Positions 1,251-23,756 of a stretch of 64,000 nt of DNA are shown here, in pieces. Source of the DNA: Thermoproteus sp. (lineage in GTDB: Archaea; Thermoproteota; Thermoprotei; Thermoproteales; Thermoproteaceae); NCBI GenBank assembly GCA_038893495.1, contig JAWARJ010000001.1, positions 1,043,824 through 1,107,823 on the forward strand, read 5' to 3'. How positions within the stretch are numbered: position 1 is the first letter of the stretch; each line of letters begins with the position of its first letter. A program made the position numbers and the translations under genes. Below the pieces are notes generated by a model that was not told where the DNA came from, ran no database searches, and saw nothing but the letters and a program-made list of their open reading frames with translations.

Positions 1251-1507
1251 TCATATCCTCTGTCTCTCTACATATATCGCAATGGTGAATCCCTCGACGT
1301 GGACCTTCACGGCTTTTGGTGTTTCGGTCGACGCAGATGCCCTCGAGGGCCGCCACGCGGAAGTTCAAAAGCCCGACGCAACTGCGCCCGCTAAAACTAT
1401 CTCCCTAACGCTAAAGCGGCTATCTTGGTCGCGGAGATGGAACATCCAGAATTGCGAAATAGACATCGGGAAAAAATTCGTCGTTCTTAACTACGAGCCG
1501 CACTAAG

Positions 1508-1876
1508 TTACCTCCCCACTATCAAGGCGGTTATCTTGGACAGAGAAAAGATAAAGAACCATGTGTTCAAGACTATAAAATACAACGTAGCCATGGGGCT
1601 CGACTTCGTAATATATCTCAAATGGACGGCCGTGCCTGCCGCAGTGCTCCAATAGACTGGAATCATCAACATCTCGACGCCCACCGCTCTTATGTCGGCG
1701 AGCACCACCAACGCGAACATAGCCGCAGAACCCAAGACGACGAGCCAATCGAGTAGAGAAAGCCTCTTCTTTTGTGCCCTCAACAAGAAGGGCAACAACA
1801 TGTTTGCGGCGAGATACCACATAATGGGCAACGAGGCGACCACTACGGGGTCGAAGAAGAAGTTGGGCAACGGCAT
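1508..1876 (-). CDS. Small four-helix membrane protein (paralogue of 23117-23482)
   Basis: 122 residues with four hydrophobic segments (about residues 8-30, 42-62, 70-88 and 95-120), so an integral membrane protein. It is clearly paralogous to the protein at 23117-23482: both start MPLP(N/S)FFFDPVVVASLP, share GSAAMFALVVLA in the middle and end in SLSKITAL(I/V)VGR. The promoter is also conserved (T-rich TATA-like box about 25 nt before the ATG, leaderless). The similarity continues about 60 bp past the stop (minus strand, 1506 to 1440). I know no function. Its paralogue sits next to a cysteine-rich secreted protein, so a role beside a peptide product (immunity or export) is possible but unproven. 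Confidence 0.75.
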   Translation of the reverse strand: MPLPNFFFDPVVVASLPIMWYLAANMLLPFLLRAQKKRLSLLDWLVVLGSAAMFALVVLADIRAVGVEMLMIPVYWSTAAGTAVHLRYITKSSPMATLYFIVLNTWFFIFSLSKITALIVGR

Positions 1877-1989
1877 GTAGCAATTTCCACATCAATTAAA
1901 AAATTTCTATTCTAACGACTCAATCGATATGCCGATACGCGGCGGCCCATTTCACCGCAAATACGCCCGACCGCTCGCGGCCGCCGCAA

Positions 1990-2297
1990 CCCTCAAGGCG
2001 CCGAGCCCTCCCGCCATAGTCGCGCATACGGCCAAGCTGTCCATTACGCGTCCGTCGGGCTGGGCGTCGAGGGGCTTAACGATGATAGGGCCCGACCCCG
2101 CGTAGAGCGTGCTGCCTCTAGAGAGCGCAATGGCGAGAGACGTGGCGACCGTGGCCTTGCCCGTGCCTCCCTTTGGGTGCCAAAAATGCGGACCAACGGT
2201 CCTCGTAGGCTACGGCGGGCCGTTGGGTGGTCGGCCAGCGCTAAAAGACGCCGAATTTGACAAACCTCAACACGGTCACCTTTCTCTTGTCGGCCAT
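1990..2297 (-). pseudogene. Decayed ParA/Soj-like ATPase with preserved promoter and start
   Basis: A TATA-like box (about 2318-2328) is followed on the minus strand by ATG at 2297 and an 18-codon frame (MADKRKVTVLRFVKFGVF) ending in TAG. Further on, in other frames, come the P-loop-like residues PKGGTGKATVATSLAIALSR and then LDAQPDGRVMDSLAV, which look like the Walker A and following region of a ParA-type chromosome/plasmid partition ATPase. Frameshifts break the gene. The same order, including the early TAG, occurs at 21581-21960, so the two loci share ancestry. It could also be a short functional peptide gene followed by debris. Confidence 0.55.
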
Positions 2298-2434
2298 AGG
2301 CGGAACTTCCCCCGTCGATATATATTTATGGTGTCCGAGCCGACCCACATCTCACCTATCTTGGGATTCGATGAGCCGCTGAGTCGATCTATCGCTACAT
2401 CAATAATGACATATATAACGGCCATAGTGGGCTC

Positions 2435-20791: not shown

Positions 20792-20870
20792 GAACTATTG
20801 GAACTCTATAAAATTAATTGTATTACTGGGGGACTTGGGGCTCCGCGTTTTTCTCTCTTCCAGCCGTCGG

Positions 20871-21437
20871 CTAGCAACCCCTCAGCCCTTCGATGTATGA
20901 CGCTATTTCGCCTATGACGGCCTCTACTGTCTCCAGCCTGTGGGCGAAATCGAGTGGGTCGGCCTTAACGTCGACGTCCGCAACGTCCAAGTCGAATATG
21001 GCCTCTATCACGTCTCTAACCCACGTGAGTGCCGTGCCCCTCGGCCCCCTCTCCTTTGCTCTATCCCTTAAGGCGTTATATACAGCCTTCACGATACCGA
21101 ACTCGCGCAGTAGCCTCCTCGCTGTCTTCTCGGCCGTCGACCACCCAGTAGCGCGGCCGAGCTCGGCGGTGGCCGAGACTATCTTTCCAGCTATCTCGCC
21201 GACGTCTCTGCCGAGATAGACAGTCTTCCTCCTCCGCCACCCCGCATATAGCTGTGCGTAGAGGTACCGCACGCCGTTTCTTACGGCCGCCCACATGTAC
21301 ATCTTGATAGGCCCAAGCTCGATGGACGCCAACGTGCCGCCGTAGGCCAGAGGCATGTGCACATATACGCCTCCCCCTTTTATCTCTTTCGCCGATAAGA
21401 AACGGCGAAATTCCTGCCTACTCCACCTAACATCCAC
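20871..21437 (-). CDS. Repeat-family protein of Thermoproteales, unknown function
   Basis: 188 residues, apparently intact. The N-terminal half (WSRQEFRRFLSAKEIKGGGVYVHM, then MYMWAAVRNGVRYLYAQLYAG) looks alpha-beta; the middle STAEKTARRLLREF stretch is helical and Arg-rich, and the C terminus is acidic and helical (LETVEAVIGEIASYIEGL). A decayed paralogue lies at 13786-14370. It resembles the multi-copy proteins found near tRNAs and remnants in this clade, but I cannot name the family with certainty. It lies in the island between glcD and the MFS gene. Confidence 0.6.
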   Translation of the reverse strand: MDVRWSRQEFRRFLSAKEIKGGGVYVHMPLAYGGTLASIELGPIKMYMWAAVRNGVRYLYAQLYAGWRRRKTVYLGRDVGEIAGKIVSATAELGRATGWSTAEKTARRLLREFGIVKAVYNALRDRAKERGPRGTALTWVRDVIEAIFDLDVADVDVKADPLDFAHRLETVEAVIGEIASYIEGLRGC

Positions 21438-21580
21438 ACATATGAATTCGCAGATAAGACGCAGATAAGAAACGGCGTGGAGATAGACTAAAGATAGTCT
21501 CTTTAGGACTTCTACTCGGCCAGCCGGTGCTGGCCTCGGGAGCCTCCGTAAAGTATATATCGCGGAGGGAAATTCGCCAT

Positions 21581-21960
21581 ATGGCCGACTGCAAGGAGGA
21601 AAAGAGGAGGGTGGCGGTGATTAGGTTCGTCGAGTTCGGCGTCTTTTAGGTCGCGGCCGTGGAGGGGGCGGTGGCTACGGCTATCGCTCAAGCTCTCGCC
21701 TAAAGGCTTATATAGGCCTCGGCGAGGCCTATATATGTTGGTGCGGGTCTGGCATCCCCAAGGGGGGACACTGGCAGGACTACAGTCGCCACGTCGCCGG
21801 TAATCGCGCTCTCTAGGGGCAGGGCGCTCTAGAGGTCGACCCCGTCCCGTTGTGTGAGGCCGTTGAGCGCCCAGCCCGACGGCCAGATGCACTAGGGGAG
21901 GCGGCGGGGCCCGGCGCCTTGGGTGCCGCCCGCCTCGTCCGCCCTAGCGGCGGGCTTGTT
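21581..21960 (+). pseudogene. Decayed ParA/Soj-like ATPase, second copy
   Basis: Same build as 1990-2297 on the other strand. A TATA-like AAGTATATAT at 21551-21560 lies about 25 nt before ATG 21581, followed by 22 codons that end in FGVF and TAG exactly like the first copy. Further on, in other frames, HPKGGTLAGL-type P-loop debris and the DNA equivalents of LAIALSRG and LDAQPDGR can be followed to about 21900. The closing part (GGGARRLGCRPPRPP in one frame) matches the region beside the membrane-protein gene in copy one. Not a functional ATPase. The short 5' frame might still be translated. Confidence 0.55.
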
Positions 21961-22031
21961 CGCGTCAATAAGCAAAAATCTATTCGACAGAAAACTAAAG
22001 TAAAAAAAAAATCTGGATCTTTTTGTAGTTT

Positions 22032-23087
22032 ATGTTGGGCCAAAAAGTTCAGGTAAAGAAGTTGGCGAAAAGTCTGTTGATGCTCGTAGTTATGCTATAC
22101 GGCATGTACGTCCAGGCGGCTTCGACGGCTCCAGCTCAATATCCCGGCCACATCATACAGGTGGCTCTAAGCGGGGAGGGAGAGCTCCAATACAACATAA
22201 CCAGCATACAACAGCTCCTATCTAAACTCAACGCCACTGCTCCACACAACGCCACGTCGGCCGGCGCTTGTAGTTGCGCTGGCGGCTGTAATAGGTCCGC
22301 CCCGCCTCCCAACGTGAAGGTGTACATCGACGTGGTGGCCAACGAGACTTGGACTGAAGACGGACAGCGCTATCAATTCCTCTTCGCCAACATCACGGCG
22401 AGCAACGGGACTTTGAGCTATACGGAATACCTCCTGTTCTACGGGTCTCAAGGCCCGAAGTACAACTTCACGGCGGTAACTCAGATATTGACCAAGCCGC
22501 GTGCGCCGGACGAATACGCGTTGTTCATCACTAGGATAGACTCGTCGCCGGCTAGAGGGAACGCGACCGCCGTGGAGTACATAGTCATTAAGAACGCCAC
22601 AACGCTGTCGGACAGCTACCGCATTATCGCCAAGGCCTTAATGAAGGTGAAGGGAGACAGCCCCAAGGCCTGGCAGATAGCCCACGTAGAGCTCAACAAG
22701 CTGGCCAACATAGTAAAGGAGGAAATACCGAAATACGACAAAAAGGCGCCGACAATAGCAGTGGCGACAGACGTTGTCGTATGCGTGTTCTCGCCCCAGC
22801 CTCTTGCGGGAATAAGCATATACCTAGACTGTCTGCAACCCAATGCGCCGATGTTCGTCCTCCTCGGAAACTGTTGCGTGCCGATTGCGGGAGCTATAGC
22901 CGGTTGCGCTGCTATGTGTCTTACAGGACCGGAGTCATGTTTGCTCTGTGCGGTCGGTGCTATAAATGGAGTATGGAATCTTCTATCCAACCAATGCTAT
23001 CCTGTCTGTCCGGCGATGAATGTATGCGTAGGTATATGCGCACTATCGACTTATTGCATCCCGATTGCGTGCATCAGAATATGGTAA
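22032..23087 (+). CDS. Secreted protein with 14-Cys C-terminal domain (halocin C8-like precursor architecture?)
   Basis: 351 residues. A Sec-type signal peptide is likely (KKLAKSLLMLVVMLYGMYVQA, cut near 29). The middle (about 30-245) is hydrophilic with many NxS/T sequons. The last 101 residues are hydrophobic and contain 14 cysteines: 251, 267, 281, 282, 292, 296, 303, 306, 322, 326, 332, 336, 342 and 347. This layout (signal, 200-residue middle, compact Cys-rich hydrophobic end) recalls the halocin C8 precursor, in which the middle is the immunity protein and the end the antimicrobial peptide. That is inference; I see no proven cleavage site. Alternatively it is a disulfide-rich surface protein. 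A four-helix membrane protein gene follows 29 bp downstream with its own promoter. Confidence 0.7.
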   Translation: MLGQKVQVKKLAKSLLMLVVMLYGMYVQAASTAPAQYPGHIIQVALSGEGELQYNITSIQQLLSKLNATAPHNATSAGACSCAGGCNRSAPPPNVKVYIDVVANETWTEDGQRYQFLFANITASNGTLSYTEYLLFYGSQGPKYNFTAVTQILTKPRAPDEYALFITRIDSSPARGNATAVEYIVIKNATTLSDSYRIIAKALMKVKGDSPKAWQIAHVELNKLANIVKEEIPKYDKKAPTIAVATDVVVCVFSPQPLAGISIYLDCLQPNAPMFVLLGNCCVPIAGAIAGCAAMCLTGPESCLLCAVGAINGVWNLLSNQCYPVCPAMNVCVGICALSTYCIPIACIRIW

Positions 23088-23116
23088 ATCTTTAAAAAAC
23101 TACGCCGGATTTTTCT

Positions 23117-23482
23117 ATGCCTCTCCCTAGCTTCTTCTTCGATCCCGTGGTGGTCGCCTCGTTGCCCATTGTGTCGTATCTCGCCATGAACATGTCGTTG
23201 CCCTTCTTGTTGAGGGGACAGAGGAGGGGTGTCCCTCCGGTTGAGTTGTCTATCGCCTTGGGGTCAGCGGCCATGTTTGCGCTCGTAGTGCTCGCTGTCC
23301 TCAGAGCCGTAGGCGCGGAGGTGTTGATGGTTCCGGCCTATTGGAACTTCGCGGCCGGCTTGGTCCTCCAGTACAGATATACGAAGTCGAATCCAGTCGT
23401 GGCGCTCTACTTCGCAGTTATGAACATATGGTTCCTAGATCTCTCCTTGTCCAAAATAACCGCATTGGTGGTGGGGAGGTAG
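23117..23482 (+). CDS. Small four-helix membrane protein (paralogue of 1508-1876)
   Basis: 121 residues with four hydrophobic segments. It shares the start MPLP(S/N)FFFDPVVVASLP, the central GSAAMFALVVLA and the end SLSKITALVVGR with the protein at 1508-1876. The middle loop differs (RGQRRGVPPVELSIAL against RAQKKRLSLLDWLVVL). The ATG lies about 23 nt after a TATA-like ATCTTTAAAAA, so it is leaderless. It directly follows the cysteine-rich secreted protein, which is missing at the other locus. Both copies keep an open frame, which suggests selection. Function unknown; immunity to or export of the neighbouring product is a testable idea. Confidence 0.75.
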   Translation: MPLPSFFFDPVVVASLPIVSYLAMNMSLPFLLRGQRRGVPPVELSIALGSAAMFALVVLAVLRAVGAEVLMVPAYWNFAAGLVLQYRYTKSNPVVALYFAVMNIWFLDLSLSKITALVVGR

Positions 23483-23529
23483 TCCGTTGCGGTTCGTAGT
23501 TAAAACGACGATTTTTTCCAACGTCTATT

Positions 23530-23756
23530 TCGCAATACAATTAATTTTGAGTTCTAAGTTCATGAGGGAGTTGAGGAGAAGGGGCCGCTTTGTGGACGGC
23601 CCAGCGCTCTACTCCCGCGAGGCGCCGTTCGAGGGGCCCGCCCTTGAGCGTGCGAGGGCTTTCGGCGTTAGACCTAACATACTAAACCCTTCCTATGGAC
23701 AAGCGGCGGGAGCCCTTCCGGCGCGCGGCGGAGACCTCCTAGAATATTCAAAATTA
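23530..23756 (+). pseudogene. Inverted, internally deleted copy of the glcD-lutB operon
   Basis: Positions 23530-23660 repeat the glcD promoter and first codons: AATACAATTAATTTT, then ATGAGGGAG and the codons for GRFVDGPALYSREAPFEG, against DRFVDDPAF and LYSREASFEE in the real gene. After a jump, 23680-23745 repeats the junction between glcD and lutB: ILNP, CCTATG, then a run equivalent to the lutB start including GCGCGCGGCGGAG. More than a kilobase in between is missing. The orientation is opposite to the real operon at 18297-20791, and the copy ends at the stop of the MFS gene. This is a rearrangement scar, not a gene. Confidence 0.75.

Follow-up and report, generated by a model that had tools for sequence, protein, structure and literature searches.

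A candidate toxin-immunity gene pair with an exchangeable cysteine-rich tip in Thermoproteus and related carriers in the Thermoproteota

What is the role of a gene for a secreted protein with a cysteine-rich end that is followed by a gene for a small membrane protein in the genome of a Thermoproteus species? The pair is located in the window, by which we mean the whole stretch of 64,000 nucleotides that was analysed, and the genome around the window is one contig of 1,995,394 bases. A sequence-only reading of this DNA had proposed a peptide-antibiotic system that parallels halocin C8. The comparison of related loci suggests that the two genes quite probably form a toxin-immunity module that resembles the polymorphic toxins. 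The features of the locus are compiled in Table 1.

Table 1 Features of the precursor locus and of its diverged copy in the window
Feature	Position	Strand	Basis and remarks
Precursor gene, 351 aa	22032..23087	+	Open frame; 25 family members examined across Thermoproteota
Signal peptide, about residues 1-32, Sec-type, without RR motif	22032..22127	+	Read from the sequence
Conserved carrier part; contains ten N-x-S/T sequons and closes with TIAVATD (22752-22772), the boundary motif	22128..22772	+	Alignments
Type A tip with 14 Cys in 104 residues	22773..23084	+	Tip comparisons; AlphaFold model of the isolated tip
TATA-like box CTTTAAAAAA, 18-27 nt ahead of the membrane gene's ATG	23090..23099	+	Sequence; promoter role putative
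Membrane protein, putative immunity protein, 121 aa	23117..23482	+	Open frame; paralogue in the window
Orphan membrane protein of 122 aa, a paralogue with 64% identity to the 121-aa protein and without adjoining precursor	1508..1876	-	Search with the 121-aa protein
Diverged copy of the locus, precursor absent	1451..2331	-	Collinear match
Island between FAD-oxidase and MFS genes	20792..23756		Spacing in three congeners
Inverted gene remnants at the right island end (starts of the FAD-oxidase and LUD genes)	23534..23733	+	Sequence matches

The precursor begins with the hydrophobic Sec-type N-terminus KKLAKSLLMLVVMLYGMYVQAA, and no RR occurs in the N-terminal stretch MLGQKVQVKKLAKSLLMLVVMLYG. All sequons are situated before residue 195, and the carrier is probably glycosylated. 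The protein contains 17 cysteines, of which three lie in the middle part (CSCAGGC) and 14 in the 104 residues after residue 247. With the 0.77% cysteine of the 72 crude gene calls in the window as the reference, the probability of finding at least 14 cysteines in 104 residues is about 1e-13, and none of the other genes called exceeds seven cysteines per 100 residues. The open frame and the cysteine excess of the hydrophobic end, both described in the sequence-only reading, were thus confirmed, and the end was delimited to 104 residues. Ten of the cysteines are invariant among the four members with a type A tip (residues 251, 267, 281, 292, 303, 306, 322, 326, 332 and 347). We infer that the tip contains disulfides and that it is released by cleavage near the aspartate at its boundary.

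Hydrophobicity predicts three helices at the C-terminal end of the precursor. When the type A tip was modelled alone, AlphaFold returned a beta hairpin, four helices and a second beta hairpin with a pLDDT of 75 and a pTM of 0.68, from just two sequences; the model of the whole precursor, with a mean pLDDT of 39, was set aside. The search with the tip model gave no fold match (best E values of 1.4 for the PDB and 0.29 for viral models), and the sequence search of the PDB yielded hits at chance level only. The type A tips may therefore have a fold that is not among the solved structures, as is assumed in the phylum-wide reading discussed below.

The precursor has no family match in Pfam, NCBIfam or PHROGs, and searches of plasmids, phages and viral contigs revealed no relatives. 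Close homologues are present in two more genomes of the Thermoproteaceae, one of which is that of Pyrobaculum oguniense TE7, the only hit when genome contigs were scanned with the middle domain. The homologue that P. oguniense has of the window precursor carries a frameshift, possibly a sequencing error, beside a membrane gene with an open frame. A profile of the middle part, which is free of the Cys-rich end except for one cysteine at the margin, picks up distant members elsewhere in the Thermoproteota, the phylum that was covered by the profile searches. Using an iterated profile of 14 members, the carrier domain was detected in 22 of 398 Thermoproteota genomes. The members comprise 238-741 residues, and nearly all that are intact have a signal peptide and glycosylation sequons. 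Their carriers end in the motif x-A-x-[ILV]-x-D, whose aspartate is retained in 24 of the 25 members, and the sequence behind it is hypervariable. The tips are mostly hydrophobic with 8-21 cysteines, the positions of which vary between tip types; two cysteines only are found in three Pyrobaculum paralogues (G012, G007b and G014b) and in G287.

Some loci of the family show additional features. A secreted rhodanese domain precedes the carrier at nine of them (L034, L036, L037, L042, L062, L064, L075, L066 and L070); its active-site cysteine is retained in some members, and L037 has SKSGYRS at this site. It is conceivable that the domain handles the cysteines of the tip. Beside the precursor of G335, a divergently oriented gene (L041, 2859-3881, minus strand) encodes, as judged by eye, a DsbD/CcdA-type disulfide relay with a CSTC motif and many helices. 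As judged by eye, the Cys-poor Pyrobaculum member (G007; L099, 300-8300) is surrounded by genes for ATPases resembling RadA and HerA and for a small membrane protein that resembles a pilin; these surroundings are possibly an integrated element.

The kinship of the tips does not agree with that of the carriers. By their carriers, the window, G007 and P. oguniense are most closely related to one another (Z 60-75). The tips of the window and P. oguniense group with those of the distant carrier G218 (Z 12-24; ten invariant cysteines), and the tip of G007 groups with the tips of G324, G243 and G330. Moreover, the tips of G292 and G291a are 61% identical (E 2e-28) with carriers that share 23% identity. 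The carrier tree, which is rough owing to the two long rows of G287 and G324 (types A and C are without either), rejects each of the three tip types, set from tip comparisons alone, as a single clade (p-AU 2.6e-8, 4e-7 and 3e-9). The reverse situation is also found, as the identity before and after the boundary is 94-100% versus 39% in the pair G012/G014b and 79% versus 28% in the pair G047/G329.

A locus of the second type illustrates such an exchange. Its DNA in G012 (L098) and in P. oguniense (L100) is 98.4% identical over 3651 nt, and the identity breaks off 12 nt before the codon of the boundary aspartate, behind which the two tips are 39% identical. In P. oguniense, the tip is followed by its own membrane gene (252 aa), by another membrane gene and then by a third one, which is 93% identical to the membrane gene located directly behind the tip of G012. 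This third gene (L100, 6992-7414) is thus a displaced membrane gene without its tip. In the two Pyrobaculum species, tip and membrane gene have evidently been replaced together and the old membrane gene has been retained, which matches the prediction of tip-specific immunity. To judge from these alignments, tips have been exchanged between carriers, with a conserved boundary and a linked membrane gene.

The membrane gene of the window starts after a gap of 29 nt behind the precursor frame. The position of the AT-rich box in front of it would fit a separate promoter, and AT boxes occur at the matching site in several relatives and also before the orphan copy. Of the four helices claimed previously, three exceed the Kyte-Doolittle cut-off of 1.5, by which helices were counted throughout, and the fourth is weaker; the description as a multi-helix membrane protein stands. 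Among the 72 gene calls of the window, it is the sole small gene with at least two predicted helices. A small protein with at least two predicted helices is also encoded directly downstream of 21 of the 23 members with downstream sequence, mostly less than 60 nt away, or of 20 in a stricter tally, as the neighbour of G291b is a helix-turn-helix-like protein at a distance of 179 nt. These membrane proteins are very diverse. The partner of G007 is closest to that of G330, and both belong to type B tips. In one clade, the partners track the carrier instead of the tip, and the partners of the window and G218 are unrelated, although their tips are related. The idea that membrane partners follow the tips everywhere therefore holds only in part, and the pairing is not uniform. 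In G218 (L038, L039 and L040), the precursors, some intact and some decayed, are followed by two to three small membrane genes in tandem, an arrangement reminiscent of orphan immunity genes in arrays.

The window itself contains a diverged copy of the locus. Two blocks are collinear (21546-21882 with 2331-2052 and 23131-23536 with 1862-1451), and the precursor is absent between them; a second tip was not found in the genome. The two membrane genes of the window have a dN/dS of 0.31 (bootstrap 0.19-0.49), indicating purifying selection during at least part of their separation. The distance between the FAD-oxidase and MFS genes is 26-187 nt in three congeners and 2965 nt here, so that, among the species compared, this one alone carries the island, as an insertion. 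The inverted remnants of the FAD-oxidase and LUD genes suggest that the insertion may have come with an inverted duplication. A 188-aa ORF in the island (20871-21437, minus strand) shows weak similarity to DUF4032 (E 0.0017). Copies of its gene, some of them decayed, occur at five or more sites in this genome and in none of the 20 relatives searched, a pattern that resembles that of a mobile or amplified gene.

Taken together, a conserved N-terminal part with a hypervariable tip, the exchange of tips, a downstream candidate gene for immunity and orphan or displaced immunity genes were found, as is characteristic of polymorphic toxins. The precursor would be exported via its Sec-type signal peptide, and the conserved carrier would hold or deliver the protein outside the cell. 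The toxic tip would correspond to the C-terminal 104 residues, a compact, hydrophobic and disulfide-rich peptide. It is probably cleaved off close to the conserved aspartate of the boundary, and it may disturb the membranes of archaeal relatives. Against its own tip, the producer would be shielded by the downstream membrane protein. Recombination at the boundary would swap tips and membrane partners between carriers, and old membrane genes would be retained as orphans. We infer the toxicity, the membrane as the target and the immunity from these sequence patterns. The earlier suggestion of a peptide-antibiotic-like precursor with a putative membrane immunity protein is well supported by the swapping of tips, the conserved downstream membrane gene and the orphan membrane genes. 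Tip swapping and orphans also favour immunity in the choice between immunity and export that the sequence-only reading had left open. The partners that are not bound to the tips everywhere and the frameshift in the window-type copy of P. oguniense speak against the module.

Alternatively, the carrier itself could confer immunity, following the logic of halocin C8, and the membrane protein could serve the export, folding or maturation of the tip. The precursors of halocin C8 and of the viral toxin SSV9 B310 indeed protect their producers (PMC11509114, PMC8628083), and the rhodanese-bearing clade has similar membrane partners despite differing tips. However, nearly identical carriers bear unrelated tips and thus cannot be tip-specific. 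The middle part, for which the parallel to halocin C8 had suggested an immunity role, is therefore better read as a carrier for delivery or holding. In addition, membrane genes persist without an adjoining precursor, which a factor for export or maturation would not explain. We regard immunity by the carrier as unlikely. The protection of cells by the B310 precursor itself and not by the small membrane protein (PMC8628083) nevertheless calls for caution in assigning immunity to the membrane protein here.

Variable tips and membrane partners could also mark kin at the cell surface without killing. A hypervariable secreted protein with a membrane partner would suit such self/non-self recognition, which is among the options proposed for the VARTIG modules of the Thermococcales (PMC8416519). 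Yet the small, hydrophobic Cys-rich tips are closer to known peptide toxins than to receptors or ligands, and orphan membrane genes suit protection better, making recognition somewhat more doubtful still than immunity by the carrier. An addiction module of an integrated element, acting inside the producer cell, might be suspected from the insertion of the island beside a multi-copy gene that is private to this genome. The signal peptide and the glycosylation sequons of the toxin candidate in nearly all intact members argue for an action outside the cell, and we consider a toxin-antitoxin module very improbable. The predicted helices at the hydrophobic end could moreover belong to an ordinary secreted protein for redox reactions or metal binding, or to one anchored in the membrane, with a partner subunit. 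Cysteines that change position with the tip type, tips with two cysteines and tips that move between carriers are not the behaviour of a cofactor site or an anchor, and we give this explanation hardly any credence.

The toxin-immunity module of the polymorphic-toxin kind thus being the preferred reading, there is about an even chance that the family represents an undescribed, phylum-wide polymorphic toxin system of the Thermoproteota, in which a common secreted carrier would release exchangeable, disulfide-rich and membrane-active peptides, membrane-bound immunity proteins would accumulate as orphans and the type A tips would have a new fold. Polymorphic toxin-like systems are hardly known in hyperthermophilic archaea, in which chemical warfare is almost unknown, and the carrier family provides two dozen concrete toxin-immunity candidates in this phylum. 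The natural swap between the two Pyrobaculum species predicts who resists whom, and the boundary motif is a testable candidate for the cleavage site. Furthermore, Cys-rich peptides that work in near-boiling springs would be of interest to peptide chemists.

The SSV9 pair B310/C108 of the Sulfolobus spindle-shaped viruses, which kills kin (PMC8628083), is the closest tested functional analogue. It likewise combines a protein of about 300 aa that is secreted, has a signal peptide and shows allelic diversity with a small downstream gene with predicted transmembrane helices that is linked to the allele (PMC8628083). In contrast, it is viral, lacks a Cys-rich tip and has a precursor that is itself protective. 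Homology to the SSV toxins was ruled out, as the family profile, run with hmmsearch --max on every ORF from five SSV genomes, gave no hit (best E 0.71, unrelated ORFs). Bacterial polymorphic toxins (reviewed in PMC3482391) share the conserved N-terminal delivery part, the exchangeable tip and the adjacent and orphan immunity genes; they differ in that the carrier here is unrelated and the tips here are small Cys-rich peptides instead of enzymes. The VARTIG modules also combine a secreted protein that has a recombining, hypervariable C-terminus with subsequent small membrane genes (PMC8416519), but they are large Ig-domain proteins of another phylum without a Cys-rich tip. Ig-based searches had given no close analogue in other archaea (PMC8416519). 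The sulfolobicins SulA and SulB are antimicrobial secreted proteins of thermophilic Thermoproteota as well (cited in PMC8628083) and differ in being two secreted proteins. Before the study on the SSV toxin, sulfolobicin was the sole characterised toxin system of the Sulfolobales (PMC8628083).

The parallel to halocin C8 holds for the outline, that is, for a secreted precursor of similar size with a longer hydrophilic middle and a hydrophobic Cys-rich C-terminal part (76 aa there, 104 aa here), and was not borne out for membership. Halocin C8 is exported via the Tat system, and a single gene encodes toxin and immunity (ProC8 = HalI + HalC8; PMC11509114), whereas the window precursor has a Sec-type signal, an unrelated middle, a separate membrane gene and exchangeable tips. 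The twin arginine in the N-terminus of the haloarchaeal homologue L049 (NRRSF) is absent from it. It does not match the halocin C8-like domain model TIGR04449, even at E 10, and the six-frame search of this genome gave no match; the control Haloferax volcanii and four Thermoproteota genomes passed. For a HalI-like middle domain, an hhalign comparison of the 14-member profile with three haloarchaeal precursors returned a probability of 0.6%. The type A tip scored below column-shuffled nulls against halocin C8 profiles, in a weak test in which the positive control was barely over (17.9 versus a null maximum of 17.5). In the distant family member G373, TIGR04449 matches the tip along the full model at 19.4 bits (E 0.003), which is below the threshold, and a remote link of some tips to halocin C8 is therefore possible.

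Several further TIGR04449 proteins were observed in the Thermoproteota searches. In G025, which belongs to the same order as the window, a halocin C8-like small protein (L010, 1372-1758) matches the model below the cut-off (E 0.0026). It is nearly identical to sequences of the family f32 (L084 and L085), and the membrane protein behind it also resembles theirs; this similarity is due either to horizontal transfer or to contamination of the draft genome. The f32 loci (L083, L084, L085 and L090) encode TIGR04449 proteins above or near the cut-off, two of which share one unrelated N-terminal domain, and they often have a membrane partner ending in a conserved, cytosolic-looking part. Finally, about 5 kb separate an f32-type TIGR04449 gene in G287 from a gene of the carrier family.
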